Shown here piece by piece: positions 14,375-63,028 of a DNA stretch of 64,000 bases. Every line of letters starts with the position of its first letter. Position 1 is the first letter of the stretch. Source of the stretch: Phycisphaeraceae bacterium (GTDB lineage Bacteria > Planctomycetota > Phycisphaerae > Phycisphaerales > SM1A02); NCBI GenBank assembly GCA_015709595.1, contig CP054178.1, positions 2,175,205 to 2,239,204 of the forward strand, written 5' to 3'. The position numbers were made by a program, and so were the translations under genes. The notes under the pieces were generated by a model. It ran no database searches and had not been told where the DNA came from. It saw only the letters and a list, made by a program, of their open reading frames with translations.

Positions 14375-14438
14375 CAGGGGACGGGAGACAGAGGACGGGG
14401 ATGAATCATTCGCCATCAGCCAGCGAGCCGACAGCGCT
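14375..14438 (-). repeat. TCRGNNN-type heptad repeat, degenerate copy
   Basis: On the minus strand this gap reads as 7-nt-spaced units (CCCGTCC, TCTGTCT, CCCGTCC, CCTGACT) preceded by GTCGGCTCGCTGG. It is a degenerate member of the family described in the findings, oriented along the flanking minus-strand genes. Confidence 0.4.
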
Positions 14439-15295: not shown

Positions 15296-15362
15296 AGAGG
15301 GCGGCAACCGAATCAACCGAAACCGACGACCGACAACCGAGAATCCACCACCAAACCGATCT
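15296..15362 (-). repeat. TCRGNNN heptad array between STAS and mlaE genes
   Basis: On the minus strand it reads TCTCGGT, TGTCGGT, CGTCGGT and then TTCGGTTGATTCGGT, i.e. 7-nt units with a fixed TCGGT core. It occupies most of the 86-bp gap between two co-directional genes. Confidence 0.6.
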
Positions 15363-43487: not shown

Positions 43488-43545
43488 GGCCGAACCCGTG
43501 GCCAACGACTGTCCAATGCCTGATGCCCAGCGCCCAACGCCTTCG
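43488..43545 (-). repeat. TCRGNNN-type heptad repeat between nuoG and M1 peptidase genes
   Basis: On the minus strand it reads GCGTTGGGCGCTGGGCATCA then GGCATTGG, matching the GGCATCAGGC...GCGCTGGGCG part of the copy at 59889. It is oriented along both flanking genes. Confidence 0.5.
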
Positions 43546-54314: not shown

Positions 54315-56264
54315 ATGCGGTTGGCTCTGGCGCAGATCAACCCGACCGTCGGCGATGTCGAGGGCAACGCCCGGCTGGTGCGCGAGGCGGCCGAGCGGGC
54401 TGCCGCGGCGGGGGCGGATGCGGTCCTCTGCCCGGAAATGGTGCTGCTGGGCTACCCGCCCCGCGACCTGCTGTGGCGCGACGGTGCGGTGGAGGCGTGT
54501 GAGCGGGCGGTGCGCGACCTGGCCGCCGCCTCGATCGAGACCGCCATCATCGTGGGCCACCCGCGGCGGGTCAGCGGCGCCCGACGGGACGCCGCCAACA
54601 GCGCCAGCGTGCTGCGCGGCGGGCGGGTCGTCGCCACCTACGACAAGCAAATGCTGCCCGGCTACGACGTGTTCGACGAGGATCGCTACTTCGAGCCGGG
54701 TCGAACTCCCCGCGTGGTGGACATCGCCGGCACGCGCGCTGGCATTCTCATCTGCGAGGACATCTGGCAGGCCCGCGACGTGGAGGGAGGCCAGCACCTG
54801 GTTCCAGCCGCGCTGCATGATCCGGTCAGGGAGGCCGTGGAAGCCGGAGCGCAACTGCTGCTGATCCTCAGCGCCAGCCCGTTCGTTGCGGGCAAGGGGA
54901 AGCGACACGTCAGCCACCTGCGGAACATCGCCCGCACCTTCCGAGTGCCCATTGCCATGGTCAACCAGGTGGGGGCGAACGACGACCTGATCTTCGACGG
55001 CCGCTCGATTGTGGTCGGCGCGGATGGCGAGGTGCAGGCGGCAGCCCGCGCGTTCGAGAGCGATTTCGTGGTGCTTGAAGTGGGCGGGGGAGCGGGGGGA
55101 AGGCAGCCATCAGCGGTCAGCCGGCAGCCGTCAGGAGGCGACGCGAGGCATGAGACATCAGGCGCCGGGAACCCGGAACCCGGAACCCGGAACTCTCATG
55201 CCCTTCATTCCTCAGATCCCAGTTCTCAGTCCTGCCACGCGGCACGCATCACCCAACCCCCGGTATTCGCTCCGCCCATATCCACCGAGCACGAACTCTT
55301 TGCCGCCCTCGTCCTGGGCATTCGCGACTACTTCCGCAAGACCGGGGCGACGACGGCGCTCATCGGGCTCTCCGGCGGGATCGATTCGGCCCTGACCGCC
55401 GTGCTCGCCTCCGCCGCGCTGGGGCCGGGGAATGTCCGCGGCGTGATGATGCCCTCGCGGTACTCCTCGCCCGGCTCGATCGAGGATTCCGTGGACCTGG
55501 CGAAGCGGCTGCGTCTCGGACGACTGGTGGAAATCCCCATCGAATCCGCTCACGCGGCGTTGGAGGTCATGCTGGAAGGCGGGGAACCATCAGCCGTCAG
55601 CCGTCAGCGATCAGGGGAACGCATCGGGCATCAGGCATCAGGCACTGGGACCACGGAATACGTCAGTCCCCAGTCCTCAGTCCTCGCACCTCGATCCTTG
55701 ATTCCCGGCATCGTGGGCGAGAACATCCAGGCCCGTGTGCGCGGCGTGATCCTCATGGCCCTCTCCAACGCCATGCCGGGCGTCATGGTGCTGGCCACGG
55801 GCAACAAGAGCGAACTGGCCACCGGGTACTGCACGCTTTATGGCGACATGTGCGGCGCGCTCGCCGTGCTGGGTGACGTATACAAGACGCAGGTGTGGGC
55901 CTTGTCGCGGTGGATCAACGCCAATCACGCGGCGTGCGGTTTCGATTCGCCGCCCATTCCGCAGTCGTCGATCGACAAGCCGCCCAGCGCGGAACTGAAG
56001 CCGGATCAGACCGATCAGGACACGTTGCCGCCTTACCCGGTGCTGGACGAGATCATCCGCCGCTGGGTGGATCACGAGGAGGATGAGGAGGCGATCATCG
56101 CCGCCACGGGCTTCCCCCCGGACCTGGTGCGCCGCTGGACGGGCGTGATCGATCGCAACGAGTACAAACGCCGCCAGGCGGCCATCGTGCTCAAGGTAAG
56201 CCCGCGCACGTTCGGCCCCGGTCGGCCCATGCCGGTGGCGATGCGGTGGCGCCTGCCGGGATGA
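54315..56264 (+). CDS. nadE: Glutamine-dependent NAD+ synthetase with two in-frame repeat insertions
   Basis: 649 residues. The N-terminal nitrilase glutaminase has its triad: E41 (CPEMVLLGYPPRDLLWRDG), K111 (TYDKQMLPGYDVFDED), C147 (GILICEDIW). The synthetase domain has the ATP P-loop LIGLSGGIDSALTAVLASAA (about residue 352) and NKSELATGYCTLYGDMCGAL. It makes NAD from deamido-NAD, glutamine and ATP. About 85 residues exceed the usual length: two stretches (262-315 and 424-461) carry the repeat-derived PSAVSRQPSG / PSAVSRQRSG sequences. Both lie in loops, outside the motifs, so the enzyme is probably active. Confidence 0.94.
   Translation: MRLALAQINPTVGDVEGNARLVREAAERAAAAGADAVLCPEMVLLGYPPRDLLWRDGAVEACERAVRDLAAASIETAIIVGHPRRVSGARRDAANSASVLRGGRVVATYDKQMLPGYDVFDEDRYFEPGRTPRVVDIAGTRAGILICEDIWQARDVEGGQHLVPAALHDPVREAVEAGAQLLLILSASPFVAGKGKRHVSHLRNIARTFRVPIAMVNQVGANDDLIFDGRSIVVGADGEVQAAARAFESDFVVLEVGGGAGGRQPSAVSRQPSGGDARHETSGAGNPEPGTRNSHALHSSDPSSQSCHAARITQPPVFAPPISTEHELFAALVLGIRDYFRKTGATTALIGLSGGIDSALTAVLASAALGPGNVRGVMMPSRYSSPGSIEDSVDLAKRLRLGRLVEIPIESAHAALEVMLEGGEPSAVSRQRSGERIGHQASGTGTTEYVSPQSSVLAPRSLIPGIVGENIQARVRGVILMALSNAMPGVMVLATGNKSELATGYCTLYGDMCGALAVLGDVYKTQVWALSRWINANHAACGFDSPPIPQSSIDKPPSAELKPDQTDQDTLPPYPVLDEIIRRWVDHEEDEEAIIAATGFPPDLVRRWTGVIDRNEYKRRQAAIVLKVSPRTFGPGRPMPVAMRWRLPG
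55099..55260 (+). repeat. TCRGNNN heptad repeat inserted in nadE (linker between domains)
   Basis: Ordered blocks: CATCAGCGGTCAGCCGGCAG, then GACATCAGGCGCCGGG, then AACCCGGAACCCGGAACC, then TCAGATCCCAGTTCTCAGTC. It encodes PSAVSRQPSG...SGAGNPEPGTRNS in frame. Confidence 0.8.
55585..55700 (+). repeat. TCRGNNN heptad repeat inserted in nadE (synthetase domain loop)
   Basis: Blocks CATCAGCCGTCAGCCGTCAG, then GGGCATCAGGCATCAGGC, then CAGTCCCCAGTCCTCAGTCC. The encoded PSAVSRQRSG...GHQASGTG uses the same reading frame as the copy at 55099. Confidence 0.8.
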
Positions 56265-56320
56265 AACGATGGGCGCGTGGCTTCCCGCGGGTGCTCGCGG
56301 GGTGCTCGCGGCTTCGAAGA

Positions 56321-58582
56321 TCACCGCAGTCGATAGAGCCGCACGGCCCCGCGCTCGAACGTGCTCACCAGGTCGGCGTGCTCCTCGGCGGCCTCGACGA
56401 GCGCGTCGGGGTCGAGCATCGGGTCGCCCCAGCCGGACTTGCGCCAGCGGTCGAGCATGCCCGCGTTGATGAGCACGTGCGTGAAGCCCTGTCGGCGCAG
56501 CGAAGCGAAGGCGATCGCCCATCCGGCGGGGTCGCGCGCCGCGCTGGACATTGGTCCGCGGTCCCATGTGGTGGCGTAGGCGACGTTCGCGTTGTAATAG
56601 AACGGAGCCGACTCACCCACCAGGAGCGTGCGCGATCCGCCCGGCAACAGATGATTCACCACGATGGCGGGCAACTGGTCCGCCAGGGCGCGACGTTCGG
56701 CGTCGGTGAAGGCGTCGCCGGTGTAGAGCCGGGCCGCACCGAGGAACGCGCTGGGCGCGCCTTCCTTCTCCGACGCGAAGATGAACACCGGCCCGACGCA
56801 CCAGACCAGTGCCAGCAGGCCGCACGCGACCGTGACGAATGGCCGCGGCGCCCGCTGCGGCCGCGTTCCATCGTCATGCGCGAGCGAGGCGTTCCGTGTC
56901 AACCAGCGACCCCGCAGCACGCTGGCGACTCCCAGCGCCGCCAGCACCGAACCCGGCGCGACGACCGGCAGCAGGAAGCGCGACTTGAGATGCGTGAACA
57001 GCAGCCAGAAGCCGATCTGCACGAGGATCATTGCGCCCAGTGAACCGGCGGCGCGGCGAGCATCCGCGCGCCACAGGCACACCGCGAACCCGCCGACCAG
57101 CAGCAGGGGGAAGAATGACCACTGCGGCTTCCACGGATCGGCGGAGCCGGCGGGCGGATCGCCGAAGCCGAATCCCGGAAACTGGTCCCACAGGGCGGCG
57201 ATGCGTCCGCTGAGTCCCACGTCGGAGAAATGTCCTCGCCGCCACGCCTCCGCCTGTTCCGCCGTCCAATGCGCCGAGCCGAACACACTGGTCAGAAACG
57301 GAAACACCGGGTTGCCTGCATGCAGGGCGTTGCGGATCAGGTAGGGAGCGAGGGCGATCAAGCCGCCCGCCGCCGCCAGCAGTGCGAAGGCGAGCCAGCG
57401 CCGCCTGGGAAGGTGGAAGAGCACGAACGCGGCCATCGGCGCCACGGCCAGCCCGGCGGCGGTGAGTTTGGCCCCGCACGCCGCGCCCAGGGCCAGTCCG
57501 ACCGCCAGTCCGTGCCGGCGCGAGCACAGGTCGTGCCGAAGCGTGACGCTCATCGCCCCGGCCAGAAGCAGCACCACGAACATCTCGTTGTACGCCAGCG
57601 AGCCGACGACCACGACCCAGGGAACGCCGAGCAGGATGGCGGAGGCGAGGGGGAAGCACCGGGGGCCGAGGTTTGAAGGGTGAGGACTGGGCGGGTTCCC
57701 GGCTCCGGGTTCCGAGTCCCGAGTTGATGGGTTGGTCGATGCTTCGTGGTCCGCCGGACTGTTCAGCAACTGCCGCGTGACGCCGACGACCAGCAGCCCA
57801 GCCCCGATGGCGACCAGGGCGTGCAGCATCTGACAGGCGTACGCCGCGTCGAATGGGTCGCCGGTGAGGACCATCAGGTGCAGATACGCGCCCTCGACGT
57901 ACGAAGGGAGGAACGAATAGACGTTGTGCTCAAGCGGCTGGATGCGGCCCAGCGCCAGCCATTCCTTGGGCAGCTGCAGGTGGTAGCTCAGGGCGTCGTA
58001 CCCGCCGAACTCGGTGGCCCACAGCCAGCCGGGGGCGGAACAGGCGGCCACCAGGAGTACGGCGACGGCGGGTACCAGGGGCAGGAGCCACCAGGACGAC
58101 AAGGTCGATTGTGACGTGCGAAGCGTGGCGGCGCCGGGAGGCGCGGCTCCGGTCGCCGCGCCGCCCGCCAGGGGTTTCCTGTTCTTCGAGAGGGGTTTCC
58201 GAGTCAGGCCGACCAGCGCCATCGCCCCGCCCACGATCACGAGCGCCCATGCGGGCGCGCCGCCCAGCGCCGTGAGCCAGCCGAGCGAACCCAGGATCAT
58301 GTTCAGCCACAGCAGCGTGGCGACGCCCAGCGTCAGTTGCATTCCCGCCTCGCTGCGAGCGCAACCATCCGGCGCCAGCCAGCGGCGCAGGGGCGTCCCC
58401 CAGCCCCACGCCGCCCCCAGCCACAGCCCCGCGAGCAGGGACGCCGGAATGCATGTCACCACCAGCGGCAGGATGGCCGCGTCGCCTCGTGTCCACGTCG
58501 AGAGAATCGCCATGCCGACAAGCAGCGCCGCCGCGCACGCCAGTGGAGCGGCCGGAATGTTCACGCGGCGAGAGCCGGACAC
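56321..58582 (-). CDS. Large polytopic membrane glycosyltransferase-like protein
   Basis: About 753 residues from GTG 58582 (GTG 58564 also possible; the frame stays open to 59056 without homology). The protein has about 12 TM helices and a soluble C-terminal domain. A luminal-loop-like segment FGGYDALSYHLQLPKEWLAL suggests a GT39/ArnT-like or DUF-type sugar transferase acting in the periplasm; the acidic residue spacing is not a clear match, so the class is tentative. A heptad-repeat insertion (NPSTRDSEPGAGNPPSPHPS) interrupts a loop. It is convergent with nadE and divergent from the flagellar genes. Confidence 0.7.
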   Translation of the reverse strand: MSGSRRVNIPAAPLACAAALLVGMAILSTWTRGDAAILPLVVTCIPASLLAGLWLGAAWGWGTPLRRWLAPDGCARSEAGMQLTLGVATLLWLNMILGSLGWLTALGGAPAWALVIVGGAMALVGLTRKPLSKNRKPLAGGAATGAAPPGAATLRTSQSTLSSWWLLPLVPAVAVLLVAACSAPGWLWATEFGGYDALSYHLQLPKEWLALGRIQPLEHNVYSFLPSYVEGAYLHLMVLTGDPFDAAYACQMLHALVAIGAGLLVVGVTRQLLNSPADHEASTNPSTRDSEPGAGNPPSPHPSNLGPRCFPLASAILLGVPWVVVVGSLAYNEMFVVLLLAGAMSVTLRHDLCSRRHGLAVGLALGAACGAKLTAAGLAVAPMAAFVLFHLPRRRWLAFALLAAAGGLIALAPYLIRNALHAGNPVFPFLTSVFGSAHWTAEQAEAWRRGHFSDVGLSGRIAALWDQFPGFGFGDPPAGSADPWKPQWSFFPLLLVGGFAVCLWRADARRAAGSLGAMILVQIGFWLLFTHLKSRFLLPVVAPGSVLAALGVASVLRGRWLTRNASLAHDDGTRPQRAPRPFVTVACGLLALVWCVGPVFIFASEKEGAPSAFLGAARLYTGDAFTDAERRALADQLPAIVVNHLLPGGSRTLLVGESAPFYYNANVAYATTWDRGPMSSAARDPAGWAIAFASLRRQGFTHVLINAGMLDRWRKSGWGDPMLDPDALVEAAEEHADLVSTFERGAVRLYRLR
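57668..57735 (-). repeat. TCRGNNN heptad repeat inserted in the glycosyltransferase gene
   Basis: On the minus strand it reads AACTCGGGACTCGGAACCCG, GAGCCGGGAACCCG, then CCCAGTCCTCACCC. It is in the sense direction of this gene and keeps its frame. Confidence 0.7.
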
Positions 58583-58756
58583 GCGGCGATTGTACGGGAG
58601 GGGAAGGGACAAAGGGTCAAGGCATCGAGGGATCGAGCCGCCAGCCGGCTCCACGCCCCGGCGGCTGGCGATTCGCTCCGCATCCCTCCCCGGCACGCCC
58701 GGCACGCCATTCGCTTCATTCCTTCCGTCCGACCCCGCGTGGACATGGAGGTCCGC

Positions 58757-59869
58757 ATGAAGGCCGCAAAAACCTTGATGAAGATGCTGGTTGTGCCGGC
58801 GATGCTTGCGCTGGGCGCAACACCTGCGCGAGCGACGGACGTGCAGGATCTGGCTCGCATCAAGGGACATGAGAAGAACATTCTGACCGGGCTGGGCATT
58901 GTCATCGGGCTCAACGGCACGGGCGACAAGAGCAAGGACGCCCTCGCCGCGGCCCGACCCATGGCGCGGCTGCTCTCCAACCTTGGCGCGGGCGTGGGGG
59001 GGCTGGAGGAGCTCGCCTCCGCCAACGCCTTCGCCATCGTGCAGGTGACGATGCACGTGCCCGCCGCGGGCGCGCGGCTGGGCGATGAGATCGACGTCTC
59101 CGTGGACGCCCTCTTCAACGCCAAGTCACTGGCGGGCGGACGGCTCGTGCCGTCAATGCTGCGTCTCCCGCTGCCCGACGCCGCCGACCTGCAGCCGCTG
59201 GCGATCGCCGAGGGCGCGATCATCATCGAGGGCGACAACCCACGCTCCGGCGTGGTGCGCAAGGGCGGCATGGTGCTGGACGACCGGGCCTTCCGCGCCA
59301 ACGTGGTCTCCAGCGGCGGGGCAATGACGCTCGTCCTGCACGATCAGTACGCCTCGCACGCCGTGGCGTCGCTCATCGCCAACACCATCAACGACGAGTT
59401 CGTGCCCGTCGGGCAGCCCGGCATCGCCCAGGTGCAGGACGCCCGCAACATCCGCATCCTGCTGCCGGAGGCGGAGCGGGCCAACCCCGCCAGTTTCATC
59501 GCGGCGGTGATGACCCTGCGCATCGACCCCACGCTCATCCAGACCCCCGCGCGCGTGGTGGTGAATGAGCGCGTGGGTTCGATTGTCATCACCGGCAACG
59601 TGCAGATCAGCCCGGTGGCCATCTCGGTGGATGGGCTGTCAATCACCACGATCACGCCGCCGCCCCAGCCGACCCCGCAGGATCCGCAGGTGATGACCTC
59701 CACCTGGGCGCGGATGGACACCACCCAGGGGACGGCCCGCGACAGCGCGCGGCTGGAAGACCTGATCCGCGCCCTGGAGCAGCTCAACATTCCCGCCCGC
59801 AGCCGCATCGCCGTGCTGTTTCAGTTGCGCGACGCCGGGGCGCTTCACGCGGAGATCATCCGGCAATGA
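58757..59869 (+). CDS. flgI: Flagellar P-ring protein FlgI
   Basis: 370 residues. Signal peptide (MLVVPAMLALGATPARA), then the FlgI core: VQDLARIKGHEKNILTGLGI, VIGLNGTGDKSKDALAAARP, MHVPAAGARLGDEIDVSVDA, NPASFIAAVMTLRIDPTLIQ, ARVVVNERVGSIVITGNVQI. It forms the periplasmic ring around the flagellar rod. ATG 58757 has GGAGG 5 nt upstream; ATG 58745 is in frame. The stop overlaps the next start (ATGA at 59866). It is the first flagellar gene in this run; flgH and flgA are not upstream, where a divergent glycosyltransferase lies. Confidence 0.95.
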   Translation: MKAAKTLMKMLVVPAMLALGATPARATDVQDLARIKGHEKNILTGLGIVIGLNGTGDKSKDALAAARPMARLLSNLGAGVGGLEELASANAFAIVQVTMHVPAAGARLGDEIDVSVDALFNAKSLAGGRLVPSMLRLPLPDAADLQPLAIAEGAIIIEGDNPRSGVVRKGGMVLDDRAFRANVVSSGGAMTLVLHDQYASHAVASLIANTINDEFVPVGQPGIAQVQDARNIRILLPEAERANPASFIAAVMTLRIDPTLIQTPARVVVNERVGSIVITGNVQISPVAISVDGLSITTITPPPQPTPQDPQVMTSTWARMDTTQGTARDSARLEDLIRALEQLNIPARSRIAVLFQLRDAGALHAEIIRQ

Positions 59870-60414
59870 CGACGATCGGGACCATGCCGCTTGCAGCCGT
59901 CAGCCGCCAGCCGTTGGGGGAAGGCGCGGGGCATCAGGCGCCAGGCGCTGGGCGACAGGTGGTCGGCGGTCGGCCGTCGGAGCAACTCTCACTCGGAACT
60001 CGGAACTCGGAACTCGGAACGCACGCAGCACCCGGCACTCAGCACTTCTCCGTCGCACTTGCGGCCGCGAGAGCCGGGAAGTCGCAGGCCGCACGGGCCG
60101 AGGAAGCCGCGGCGTCATTCGTGGCGGTGGCCTTCATCGAGCCGGTGCTGGCGTCGATGTCGAAGTCCACCTTCGCCGAAGCCCCCTTCGCGCCGGGAGA
60201 CGCCGAGCGACGCTTTCAGCCCATGCTGCATTCGCTGCTGGCCGACCGCATCGCGCACGCGGCCCGTTTCCCGCTGACGGACGCGGTGGCGGAGCGGCTG
60301 ATGGGGCGTGGAAGCCATCTGCCGTCAGCCATCGGCCGTCAGCATGACGTGATGGACCTGTCGAACCGGTACGAACCCACCCCTGGCCTGATCGGGGAGG
60401 TCATCCATGCATGA
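59866..60414 (+). CDS. flgJ: Rod-binding protein, FlgJ N-terminal domain only
   Basis: 182 residues. The last ~100 hold the FlgJ rod-binding domain: EAAASFVAVAFIEPVLASMS, DAERRFQPMLHSLLADRIAH, AARFPLTDAVAERLMG. The C-terminal peptidoglycan-hydrolase domain of enterobacterial FlgJ is absent, as in many other phyla. Residues about 8-65 (LAAVSRQPLGEGAGHQAPGA) are encoded by a heptad repeat, so the natural N-terminus is probably short or lost in it; residues near 150-160 carry another short copy. ATG 59866 overlaps the flgI stop by 4 bp. The 3' end overlaps flgN by 8 bp. Confidence 0.82.
   Translation: MTTIGTMPLAAVSRQPLGEGAGHQAPGAGRQVVGGRPSEQLSLGTRNSELGTHAAPGTQHFSVALAAARAGKSQAARAEEAAASFVAVAFIEPVLASMSKSTFAEAPFAPGDAERRFQPMLHSLLADRIAHAARFPLTDAVAERLMGRGSHLPSAIGRQHDVMDLSNRYEPTPGLIGEVIHA
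59889..60055 (+). repeat. TCRGNNN heptad repeat at the 5' end of flgJ
   Basis: Blocks GCAGCCGTCAGCCGCCAGCC, GGGGCATCAGGCGCCAGGCG, ACTCGGAACTCGGAACTCGG (four ACTCGGA units) and GGCACTCAGCACT. It is the most complete copy, with all four block types in order. Confidence 0.85.
60310..60348 (+). repeat. Short TCRGNNN heptad tract near the 3' end of flgJ
   Basis: CTGCCGTCAGCCATCGGCCG then TCAGCATGACG: the first block type only, in frame. Confidence 0.6.
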
Positions 60415-61063
60415 CGATGCGTCGAAATCTCAGCACGCCAGCGAGTGGTCCATGACGTTGGATCGGCTGGAGCGGCTCCTTGTCGAGCAGGTGGCGACGC
60501 AGCGGCGACTGCTGGAAGCGCTCGACCGCAAGCGAGAGGCCATCGCGCGGGCGGATGCCGCCGCGCTGGAGCGACTGTCCCGTGAGGAGCAGCAGTTGCT
60601 CGCCAGGCACGGTGCGCTGGACCAGGAGCGTGAGGCGCTGGTGGCGACGCTGGGGGGAGCGTATGGGAACGAGCCGTCAGCAGGGGGCGGAGCGCACAAC
60701 CGCGGATCGCCAGTCGTGCTTCGGTCGATCCACCCAACTCAGCACTCAGCACTCAGCACCGGGAACTTCAATCCTCTCTCCCTCACCGACATCGCCCATC
60801 GCGAAGGCGGCGCGAGGGGTGAGCGTCTCATCGCCCTCCGCGACCAGGCGCGGGCCAATGTGGCCGAACTCAAACGGCGCAGCGGCATCCTCGCGCAGGC
60901 GGCGGCGGCTCTCAGTGCACACCTGACAGGCATCATGCAGGCCGTCGGGGCGGCGGCGATGGGCGGAATCAACGCCGGGACGTACGGGCGTCAGGGGCGG
61001 CTCGCCGGGATCGGTTCCGGCGCGGGCGTCGTGTCGCTTTCCGCGGTGGACCTGACCACATGA
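60407..61063 (+). CDS. flgN: FlgN-family flagellar chaperone
   Basis: 218 residues. FlgN-like long helices: MTLDRLERLLVEQVATQRRL, LEALDRKREAIARADAAALE and RLSREEQQLLARHGALDQER, then a heptad-repeat insertion at about residues 86-122, then a second helical part (ALRDQARANVAELKRRSGIL) ending in SGAGVVSLSAVDLTT. FlgN escorts FlgK and FlgL, whose genes follow directly, to the flagellar export gate. The repeat splits the two helical halves without breaking the frame. ATG 60407 overlaps flgJ by 8 bp. Confidence 0.83.
   Translation: MHDDASKSQHASEWSMTLDRLERLLVEQVATQRRLLEALDRKREAIARADAAALERLSREEQQLLARHGALDQEREALVATLGGAYGNEPSAGGGAHNRGSPVVLRSIHPTQHSALSTGNFNPLSLTDIAHREGGARGERLIALRDQARANVAELKRRSGILAQAAAALSAHLTGIMQAVGAAAMGGINAGTYGRQGRLAGIGSGAGVVSLSAVDLTT
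60667..60770 (+). repeat. TCRGNNN heptad repeat inserted in flgN
   Basis: Starts with GAGCCGTCAGCAGGG and ends in ACTCAGCACTCAGCACTCAG (three CTCAGCA units). It encodes TQHSALSTGNF in frame. Confidence 0.75.
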
Positions 61064-61136
61064 CCACGACGACTCTTCCATCTCGTCCTCACTTCGTGTG
61101 TTGCGACCGACAAGGAGCGATCGGCGCAATGTCTGC

Positions 61137-61211
61137 GAGCCGCGACCGTCAGGGAGCGGTCGGAACGTCTCTTCCCAACCGAACCGGACCGCTCCCTCAC
61201 GGTCGCGGCTC
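61137..61211. repeat. Long inverted repeat between flgN and flgK
   Basis: 25-bp arms with a single mismatch: 61137-61161 (GAGCCGCGACCGTCAGGGAG then CGGTC) and 61187-61211, with a 25-bp loop. A degenerate third copy (GCGACCGACAAGGAGCGATC) lies at 61103-61122. The hairpin ends 27 bp before the flgK start. Confidence 0.8.
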
Positions 61212-61238
61212 TCTTGCACTTCTTCCGAGCCAATCACC

Positions 61239-62930
61239 ATGAGTCTCAACGGCGCGCTCCAGATCGGTCGGTCGGCCATCGTCACCAGCCAGGCGGGCCT
61301 GCAGGTGGCGGGCAACAACATGGCCAACGCCGCCACGCCGGGATACTCCCGGCAGGTGATGCGGCTGGCGCCGCTGCATGGCGACCCCATCGGCCGCAAC
61401 CAGTTCATCGGGCGAGGGGTGGACCTGGTGCAGATCACGCGACAGGTCGATACCGCCCTGCAGGGCCGCTACCGCGACGCCCTCTCGGGCGAGAACGCCG
61501 CGCTCATCAACCAGCGCTTCCTGGGGGCGCTGGAGTCAATCCGCAACGAACTGACGGACAACGACGTCTCCACGCTTCTTTCGGAGTTCTTCAACTCCTT
61601 CTCCGAGGCGGCCAACAACCCGCAGGATCACGCGGTGCGCTCGCTGGTCATCCAGCGCGGCGCCACCCTCGCCGAGCGGCTGGTGCAGGTGCGCACCGAC
61701 ACCGCGCGGCTGCGCGACGAGATCGACCGCGACCTGAATGTCTCCGTCACGCAGATCAACGGCATCCTCGACCGCCTGGAGCAGGTCAACGCCCAGATCG
61801 TCACCGCGGAAGGGGGCGGCGGCGGGCAGGCCAACGCCCTGCGCGACCAGCGCGACATGCTCGTCGATGAACTGGCGCAGTACCTCGACGTCACCGCCAT
61901 TGAGCAGCCCAACGGCATGGTGGATGTGCTCGTCGGCTCGACGCCCATCATGCTGGCGGGGCGCAGCCGGGGCGTCTCGCTGCGGCTCGAAGCCGTCAAC
62001 GGCGATCTGAAGGCGTCGCTGCGCGTCAGTGCGGACCAGAGCCCGCTGACCGTGACTGGCGGGCGTGTGGGCGGGCTGCTCACGCAGCGGACCGGGCACA
62101 TCGAACCCGCCCTCGCCGCCCTCGACGACTTCGCCGGTCAGTTGATCGAGCAGGTCAACCGGCTGCACTCGCAGGGACAGGGCAAGCAGCCCTTCGCCTC
62201 GCTGACAGGCACGACGCGGGTTCCGGACGCCACGGTCAACCTGAACCACGCCACCGTCCAGTTGCCATTCCGCATCGAGAACGGCAGTTTCCTCATTCAC
62301 GTCACGCACGCGCAGACCGGCGCGCGAACCACGCACCGAATCGACGTGAACGGCGACGCCATGACGCTCAACGATCTGATGGCGGCGATCAACACGACCG
62401 TGCCCAACGTCACCGCGGGACTGAACGCCGAGCGGCGCATGACGCTCGACGCGGCGACCGGCTACCGCATCTCGTTCTCGGACGATTCATCGGGAGCGCT
62501 GGCGTCGCTGGGCATCAACACGTTCTTCTCCGGGCGTGACGCGACGGACATCGCCGTCAACGCCGCGCTCGAGAATGACCCCGGCCTGCTGGCGCTGGGC
62601 AGCGGCCACGAGGATGGCTCCAACGGCGCCGCCCTGGCCATCGCCGGGCTGCAGGACGCGAAGGTGAGTCAGCTCGGCGGGCGCACACTGCGCGAGTTCT
62701 GGCAGCAGACGCTCAGCGCCGAGGCCGTGAAGACCGCCGCCGCGGAATCCAAGGTGGAATCGACGCGCCTGGTGCGTCAGAGCATCGAGGCCCAGATGCA
62801 GGCGGTCTCGGGCGTGTCGCTCGATGAGGAAGCGATCAACCTGATGGCCTTTCAGCGACAGTTTCAGGCGGCGGCCCGTTTCATCTCCGTGATCGACGAG
62901 AGCATTCAGACGCTGCTGGCGATGGTGTGA
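61239..62930 (+). CDS. flgK: Flagellar hook-associated protein 1 FlgK
   Basis: 563 residues. N-terminal flagellar rod motif in QAGLQVAGNNMANAATPGYS and RQVMRLAPLHG, then VDLVQITRQVDTALQGRYRD and a long coiled coil; C-terminal AINLMAFQRQFQAAARFISV IDESIQTLLAMV, the helix that packs with the N-terminus in FlgK. The variable D2-like middle has TGTTRVPDATVNLNHATVQL. It joins the hook to the filament through FlgL. ATG 61239. The gene follows flgN after a long inverted repeat and precedes flgL by 99 bp of heptad repeat. Confidence 0.95.
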   Translation: MSLNGALQIGRSAIVTSQAGLQVAGNNMANAATPGYSRQVMRLAPLHGDPIGRNQFIGRGVDLVQITRQVDTALQGRYRDALSGENAALINQRFLGALESIRNELTDNDVSTLLSEFFNSFSEAANNPQDHAVRSLVIQRGATLAERLVQVRTDTARLRDEIDRDLNVSVTQINGILDRLEQVNAQIVTAEGGGGGQANALRDQRDMLVDELAQYLDVTAIEQPNGMVDVLVGSTPIMLAGRSRGVSLRLEAVNGDLKASLRVSADQSPLTVTGGRVGGLLTQRTGHIEPALAALDDFAGQLIEQVNRLHSQGQGKQPFASLTGTTRVPDATVNLNHATVQLPFRIENGSFLIHVTHAQTGARTTHRIDVNGDAMTLNDLMAAINTTVPNVTAGLNAERRMTLDAATGYRISFSDDSSGALASLGINTFFSGRDATDIAVNAALENDPGLLALGSGHEDGSNGAALAIAGLQDAKVSQLGGRTLREFWQQTLSAEAVKTAAAESKVESTRLVRQSIEAQMQAVSGVSLDEEAINLMAFQRQFQAAARFISVIDESIQTLLAMV

Positions 62931-62937
62931 GGGGAGA

Positions 62938-63028
62938 GCAGGCACGAGATATCAGACACTGGGCAGTAGGCGATCGGAACCCGGAACTCGGAACGTCCTC
63001 AATCCTCAATCCTCAGCACTCCACTTCC
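62938..63028 (+). repeat. TCRGNNN heptad repeat in the flgK-flgL gap
   Basis: Blocks AGATATCAGACACTGGGCAG, then GGAACCCGGAACTCGGAAC, then CCTCAATCCTCAATCCTCAG. It fills nearly the whole gap and ends just before the flgL start. Confidence 0.8.

Follow-up and report, generated by a model that had tools for sequence, protein, structure and literature searches.

Ordered heptamer arrays in a Phycisphaeraceae genome as probable arms of S23/IVS-type insertion elements

Heptamer arrays in the window and their order along the genome

Tandem arrays of 7-bp units occur both between genes and in frame within genes of a Phycisphaeraceae bacterium, which raises the question of what these arrays are and how they reached so many sites. 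We examined a stretch of 64,000 bases (the window; C1:2175205-2239204, 67% G+C) of its genome, a single contig of 3,841,330 bases that is 99% complete. The window contained 7 lag-7 runs and 7 runs of three TCRGNNN, where 60 second-order Markov shuffles averaged 0.07 and 0.33, respectively; its arrays are thus far beyond chance. We named the heptamer families A (TCAGCCR), B (TCAGGCA/CTGGGCA), C (TCGGAAC/CCGGAAC), D (TCAGCAC), E (TCAGTCC) and F (TCGGTTG), and refer to the GTAGGGTGGG..CCCACC palindrome as P.

Two composites lie in frame on the forward strand of the NAD synthase gene (NadE, 54315-56264). Insert 1 (55099..55240) comprised TCAGCNG units (55104-55134), (GGAACCC)n (55168-55193) and CTCAGTCC-type units (about 55206-55235), and insert 2 (55585..55695) comprised A as TCAGCCG (55587-55617), B as TCAGGCA (55621-55649) and E as TCAGTCC (55663-55685). 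Both inserts were missing from the aligned NadE of relatives, which had a shorter loop at the position of insert 2. The empty alleles foreseen in the initial annotation are therefore present, and the outcome that it had set against its own reading, namely arrays kept as conserved protein sequence at orthologous sites, was not found in NadE. On the reverse strand, an array of the TCGGAAC/CCGGAAC family (57668..57727, with tandem heptamers at 57697-57724) was in frame in a large membrane-protein gene (56321-58564, -), the strand of the array being the sense strand of the gene.

The remaining strong arrays were all on the forward strand. The composite at 59889..60046, in frame at the start of the ORF 59866-60414, carried A (59894-59914), B (about 59930-59955), TCGGCGG (59961-59980), C as four TCGGAAC units (59991-60020) and D as TCAGCAC (60021-60046), and the same ORF contained an A-type array (TCAGCCATCGGCCGTCAG) at 60313..60345. 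The FlgN gene (PF05130) harboured in frame an A remnant (60673-60685) and a D array of three TCAGCAC units (60737-60759), together spanning 60673..60759. Finally, a composite of B-like units, C and (CCTCAAT)n, and D (62938..63022) was located between flgK (FlgK by PF22638) and the following gene. Two weak arrays were found on the reverse strand, one of F type (15306..15340; CAACCGA, i.e. TCGGTTG on that strand) and one of B type (43510..43540; complement of TTGGGCGCTGGGCATCAGGCATTGG). The loci listed in the initial annotation thus carried clear tandem heptamers at 55099-55240, 55585-55695, 59889-60046, 60673-60759 and 62938-63022 (+) and at 57697-57724 (-), were weak at 15296 (CAACCGA) and 43488 (B type, -) and had no clear array at 14375; the array at 60313-60345 had been overlooked. 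Its statement that all units fit TCRGNNN was true of some families, but CCGGAAC, CTGGGCA and AATCCTC were also present, and other genomes have other heptamers.

The same families recurred through the 3.84 Mb of the genome. We counted 16 matches to GGAACTCGGAACT (0 for the reversed-pattern control) and, allowing up to one mismatch, 81 to GCCGTCAGCCGTCAG, the GCCGTCA doublet (control 1), and 58 to CTCAGCACTCAGCAC (control 0). For TCRGNNN itself this control is unclean here, since GCCGTCA arrays match the pattern when complemented. In 464 kb (the window and 20 stretches spaced evenly over the genome) there were 13 perfect lag-7 arrays, against none in shuffles, and TCRG was present in 9 of the 13, compared with 15% of random heptamers. 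In 766 kb that we read (about 20% of the genome), 90 clusters rarely departed from the order A, B, (P, F), C, D: A preceded D in 11:1 cases, B preceded D in 10:0, A preceded C in 9:0, B preceded C in 7:0, C preceded D in 10:2 and A preceded B in 6:1. The claim of a dispersed, multi-block family with one fixed order was thereby upheld genome-wide.

In the arrays located inside genes, at least 29, the TCAG strand was always the sense strand; the cluster label showed this for 26, and the remaining three clusters have the TCAGCCG array itself on the sense strand. Read on the TCAG strand, heptamers such as TCAGCCG, TCAGCAC and TCAGTCC are free of stop codons in all frames, whereas the opposite strand has a TGA in each of them, which accounts for this orientation. 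Pfam identified NAD synthase (CN_hydrolase and NAD_synthase, with two inserts) and FlgN as host genes in the window; elsewhere, the putative hosts, as judged from sequence, would include glutaminyl- and isoleucyl-tRNA synthetases, MnmE, a RimO-like protein, TruA, KsgA, Mfd and proline/aldehyde dehydrogenase.

Repeats of other kinds were also present in the genome. Further short palindromes (CCCTCTCCC..GGGAGAGGG; GTAGGGTGGGTCGAGTC..GGCCCACC) stood in frame in genes or beside heptamer arrays, at about C1:453150-453190 and many other sites. A single Y1/RAYT gene was present (L388; C1:3836995-3837198 and flanks). It was in frame in a class I tRNA synthetase gene, which reads as valyl-tRNA synthetase with an open frame of 1345 codons, and REPs GAGCCGCGACCGT..AGGGAGCGG flanked it. 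The same REPs occurred as a pair (GAGCCGCGACCGTCAGGGAGCGG .. CCGCTCCCTCACGGTCGCGGCTC) in the window at 61139-61214, upstream of flgK. A REP pair of genome G107 (L458 15494-15655) was cleanly missing at the orthologous site of G059 (L460), which had 8 bp in place of 160 bp.

S23/IVP genes between inverted arrays

In genomes G107 and G059, two inverted arrays enclosed a small gene that we identified as S23/23S_rRNA_IVP (PF05635, E 3.5e-41 in G107). At this same intergenic site (L458 9900-10400 in G107 and G059; L464 in G086), G086 had a RAYT with REPs in place of the S23 element of the other two species. A tblastn search over the collected DNA recovered nine S23 places, all of them bracketed either by heptamer arrays or, at L281, by the P palindrome (GTAGGGTGGG) on both sides. 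The bracketing heptamers differed: one S23 gene of G107 had TCAGYNN arrays and a second, also present in G086, TTGGCNN-type arrays, and elsewhere we found TCAGGAG (G011), TCAGCAC (L345, another organism) and AAATCTS (G157). Because the G011 locus came from the NadE comparison, its choice was independent of arrays.

The genome under study contained two complete elements. The A-family element (C1:1708449-1708863) carried an S23 gene between A arrays (about 1708493-1708850) that was 60% identical to the G107 homologue and is probably decayed, since it has one internal stop (in-frame TGA or TAG); its gene neighbourhood was that of the S23 locus in G107. The D-family element (C1:3516911-3517422) had an S23 gene with an open frame between D arrays (3517000-3517350, -), 30% identical to the G107 homologue, and its protein (G000_D) matched the solved structure 2gsc. 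Both elements are predicted to have terminal inverted repeats forming the outer stem of a hairpin, with array paired to array over about 33 bp in the D element and about 26 bp in the A element. Both lie between protein genes and not in 23S rRNA, and strictly speaking are therefore not 23S IVSs.

No S23 gene was found in the window, and its arrays can therefore only be solitary or non-autonomous arms. The composites of the window showed no folding beyond shuffles (z -0.4 to +2.7), and at none of its arrays did we find the inverted partner and hairpin of a complete element; in this genome, an inverted partner within 600 bp was present at 2 of 39 A arrays and 2 of 16 D arrays. The window arrays of A (TCAGCCG, left) and D (TCAGCAC, right) agree in heptamer and side with the arms of the complete elements, a match established for A and D and not for B, C, E or F, for which no S23 partner was found in the approximately 20% of the genome that was read. 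A is the left arm and D the right arm of their S23 elements in this genome, which matches A standing first and D last in the composites.

As an independent sample we took 30 S23 genes from plasmid records, picked by protein similarity alone; the genes are partly non-independent, several cyanobacterial copies being near-identical. About 28 of the 30 were bracketed, by eye, by arrays of 7- or 8-bp units, the exceptions without an array being the S23 genes of Nostoc commune and Pseudanabaena PCC 7367. The unit differed by lineage (AGTAGGG, GGGAACA, GGGAAAA, GTGTAGG, TCAGRAG, GGTGACA, AGTGATT and others). A lag-7 score of at least 9 was reached by 63% of the 60 flanks (38/60) and by 2% of 176 control windows from the same loci, and at other lags the flanks reached 0-2% (lags 5, 6, 9, 10 and 11) and 13% (lag 8). 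Inverted similarity of the two flanks of at least 12 was found for 22 of 30 genes, compared with 3 of 90 controls, and four or five of the 30 had direct rather than inverted arrays (e.g. Pseudanabaena galeata, Treponema, Oscillatoria). One plasmid S23 gene with heptamer arms (Azospirillum) was inside 23S rRNA. Most of the plasmid S23 genes found were cyanobacterial with heptamer arms, and the lead to cyanobacterial STRRs given in the initial annotation was therefore right. Among diverged S23 genes, heptamer and protein relatedness were hardly correlated (Mantel rho 0.05; 374 of 2000 permutations as high), and the heptamer often followed the protein only for pairs above about 60% identity; a clade-wide pairing of S23 and heptamer was thus not borne out and applies to close pairs only.

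Empty sites were recovered in Nostoc plasmids that share a row of three genes. An S23 element with TCAGRAG arms was at the first junction in two plasmids, and one with GGGAAAA arms was at the second junction in a third plasmid; each site was empty in the plasmids without that element, where the genes were about 3 bp apart and no array was present. The 5-bp TTCTA and the ATG repeat at the ends of these elements could be target duplications or may be due to chance. In the same plasmid survey (L498, L500, L505, L514 set), the neighbours on either side of the S23 element were CRISPR-associated genes (cas6/cas4, cas10/cmr3) on three cyanobacterial plasmids and the pair hsdS and hsdR on a Monoglobus plasmid.

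Spread and turnover of the arrays

Among 200 relatives, matches to four consecutive TCRGNNN ranged from 0 to more than 200 per genome and varied even between related genera, and the heptamers differed genome by genome. Congeners (93-95% DNA identity) mostly had their arrays in common at orthologous sites; G107 and G059 showed exact 7-bp unit differences, two of them at one locus, and arrays of G107 and G086 differed by several units. Heptamer units come and go in place, and this in-place change does not create shared families. In genome G160, 18 of 19 arrays that had been detected independently of the core kept TCAG unchanged, with the other three bases varying, and several arrays were inverted pairs around a short interior. 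A universal TCRG core holds in G160, but TCRG was present in about 20% of far arrays in other phyla (7% expected), and we rejected it as a general feature.

The initial annotation, in treating the family as one of this genome, was too narrow. TCAGCAC arrays of 3.5 units were present in at least 120 stretches of Cyanobacteria, Chloroflexi, Chlorobi, Nitrospira, Acidobacteria, Beta- and Gammaproteobacteria and Planctomycetota; 35 viral stretches contained a shorter form. In the TCAGCAC stretches among the matches listed we counted 324 arrays of period 7, against 21-24 for periods 8 and 9; the stretches had been selected for TCAGCAC, yet 170 of the arrays were of other heptamers. At 93 loci of other organisms, from many phyla, the inverted partner of TCAGCAC stood to its left 28 times and to its right twice (background 1.1%), mostly 17-180 bases away. 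The left-partnered loci look like S23-less hairpins, because their polarity is that of the D element with its S23 gene. An S23 gene was close to TCAGCAC arrays in 2 of 120 contigs (among the matches listed, in stretches of up to 8 kb), and none was found in phage records or by a single-protein viral scan.

Origin of the arrays and relation to known repeats

We conclude that the arrays of the window are probably solitary or composite arms of S23/IVS-type insertion elements, that is, S23-less derivatives of such elements. A complete element would consist of a heptamer array, an S23/IVP gene (about 120 aa, a four-helix bundle) and an inverted copy of the array, and its transcript would fold into one long hairpin with the two arrays as outer stem. 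Bracketing, inversion, predicted stems, polarity across phyla, empty sites, gain and loss of units and the stop-free orientation are the observations behind this proposal. The composites may bring together arms of several families that keep their side (A left, D right), which would give the fixed block order. Arms would insert between genes or, on the stop-free strand, in frame in protein loops, after which 7-bp units would be won or lost through slippage. We further suppose that S23 promotes the moving or copying of its own arms and that additional S23 families supplied the B, C, E and F arrays as their arms; how the elements are copied and how composites arise is likewise a matter of inference. 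We saw no movement of an element, and we know of no nucleic-acid chemistry for S23. The single ordered repeat of the initial annotation is hence better read as a series of arms of insertion elements that carry an S23/IVP gene when complete; its observation is partly confirmed and its interpretation partly supported.

Several known systems resemble these elements. The IVS of Coxiella burnetii has an S23p gene within a hairpin of terminal inverted repeats, preceded by tandem GACAGAT heptamers whose number varies by strain (PMC4990558), and it shares with our elements the S23/IVP gene in an inverted-repeat hairpin, the variable heptameric direct repeats and, in one plasmid case, the location in 23S rRNA. 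Unlike it, the complete elements here are mostly between protein genes, their arms have a different heptamer for each S23 lineage, and S23-less arms are scattered through the genome and in genes. Cyanobacterial STRRs or long heptanucleotide repeats, GGGAATC of Xanthomonas and GGGGATT of Nostoc are likewise dispersed 7-bp tandems, mostly intergenic and with a strong preference for period 7, and our arrays, being tandem 7-bp units at many sites beyond chance, belong with STRRs; in the accessible part of that literature they are described alone (PMC4692102), whereas here S23 is the associated gene and the arms are inverted. TAACTGA repeats of Beggiatoaceae, some cyanobacteria and Bacteroidetes have a complement, TCAGTTA, that fits TCRGNNN, a patchy distribution over distant phyla and a position between genes or at gene edges, but they are a single heptamer, and S23 is not considered in the accessible part of that paper (PMC4679880). 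RAYT/REP systems and small non-autonomous elements, as far as the available parts of their descriptions go, are also dispersed short repeats of the kind that flanks one small gene (PMC10969869, PMC2229807). S23, in contrast, is a four-helix bundle without the Y1 fold, and its arms consist of tandem heptamers instead of single palindromes. Rickettsia palindromic elements are short repeats that lie in frame within proteins. The same is described, in the part of the source available, for Borg tandem repeats (PMC9879509); both differ from our arrays in sequence, unit length and hosts, and the heptamer units here are not multiples of three. In the open-licence literature we found no paper joining S23 and STRRs, a link that may exist elsewhere, and none on these heptamers as bacterial repeats. 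We think that what is new is the link itself, in which S23 elements outside rRNA have heptamer arrays for arms, the components being already known.

Other origins have to be weighed against S23 elements. Polymerase slippage in place, favouring units of seven bases and with no mobile element, would produce plain heptanucleotide repeats; it agrees with the 7-bp unit gain and loss between congeners and with the excess of period 7 in other phyla too (324 against 21-24 among the matches listed), and has been proposed for long heptanucleotide repeats (cited in PMC4679880). Identical heptamers at dozens of sites, the fixed block order, the fixed-polarity inverted pairs across phyla and the bracketing of S23 are left unexplained by it, and we consider it an unlikely origin, although slippage probably shapes arrays once they have arrived. 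Similarly improbable is that S23 genes simply insert into, or persist beside, older heptamer arrays of another origin. Most arrays indeed have no S23 gene nearby, and a few S23 genes (Pseudanabaena, Treponema, Oscillatoria) have direct arrays on both sides, but insertion into one array predicts flanks of the same direction when most are inverted, and the array-free empty sites refute this origin at the two Nostoc sites.

Mobilisation of REP-like elements by a RAYT (Y1) transposase is very unlikely: array and Y1_Tnp counts correlated over 201 genomes (partial rho 0.30 given genome size, with phylogeny uncorrected), but the sole Y1 gene present here has its own flanking REPs (GAGCCGCGACCGT..GGGAGCGG) in place of heptamers, and G041 had 207 matches without any match to Y1. 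Membership in the RAYT/REP class, in which the Y1 gene is flanked by the same repeat, was accordingly rejected. Selection on regulatory arrays, as sites of RNA- or DNA-binding proteins, would fit the kept core with three varying bases in G160 and the many arrays directly ahead of start codons; arrays within the coding sequences of housekeeping enzymes and the extreme patchiness among related genera make it highly improbable. The constant core with variable remainder in G160 also resembles repeated priming, as would be expected of RNA-templated repeat synthesis by a reverse transcriptase, and filler DNA of Ku-type end-joining was considered along with it; we regard these origins as extremely unlikely and largely refuted here, through the absence of both RVT_1 and Ku from this 99%-complete single-contig genome, and both were also missing from several of the array-richest relatives.

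Returning to S23 elements as the source of the arrays, a wider proposal can be made tentatively, and we hold it to be possible rather than probable: S23/IVP genes and heptamer arms may form one widespread class of mobile elements, in which the IVSs of 23S rRNA would be the special case that came to notice first and numerous dispersed heptamer repeats, including cyanobacterial STRRs, would be the solitary or non-autonomous remains; with no recognisable transposase, S23 might take part in an undescribed copying of DNA or RNA. To our knowledge, heptamer repeats and rRNA intervening sequences have been described for decades without agreement on where they come from or what they do. Should bracketing of this kind prove general for S23 genes, the two puzzles would merge, S23 gaining a candidate substrate in its own arms and the heptamer repeats a candidate gene. 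This would, if true, also account for the short repeats that lie in frame within housekeeping enzymes of this genome.
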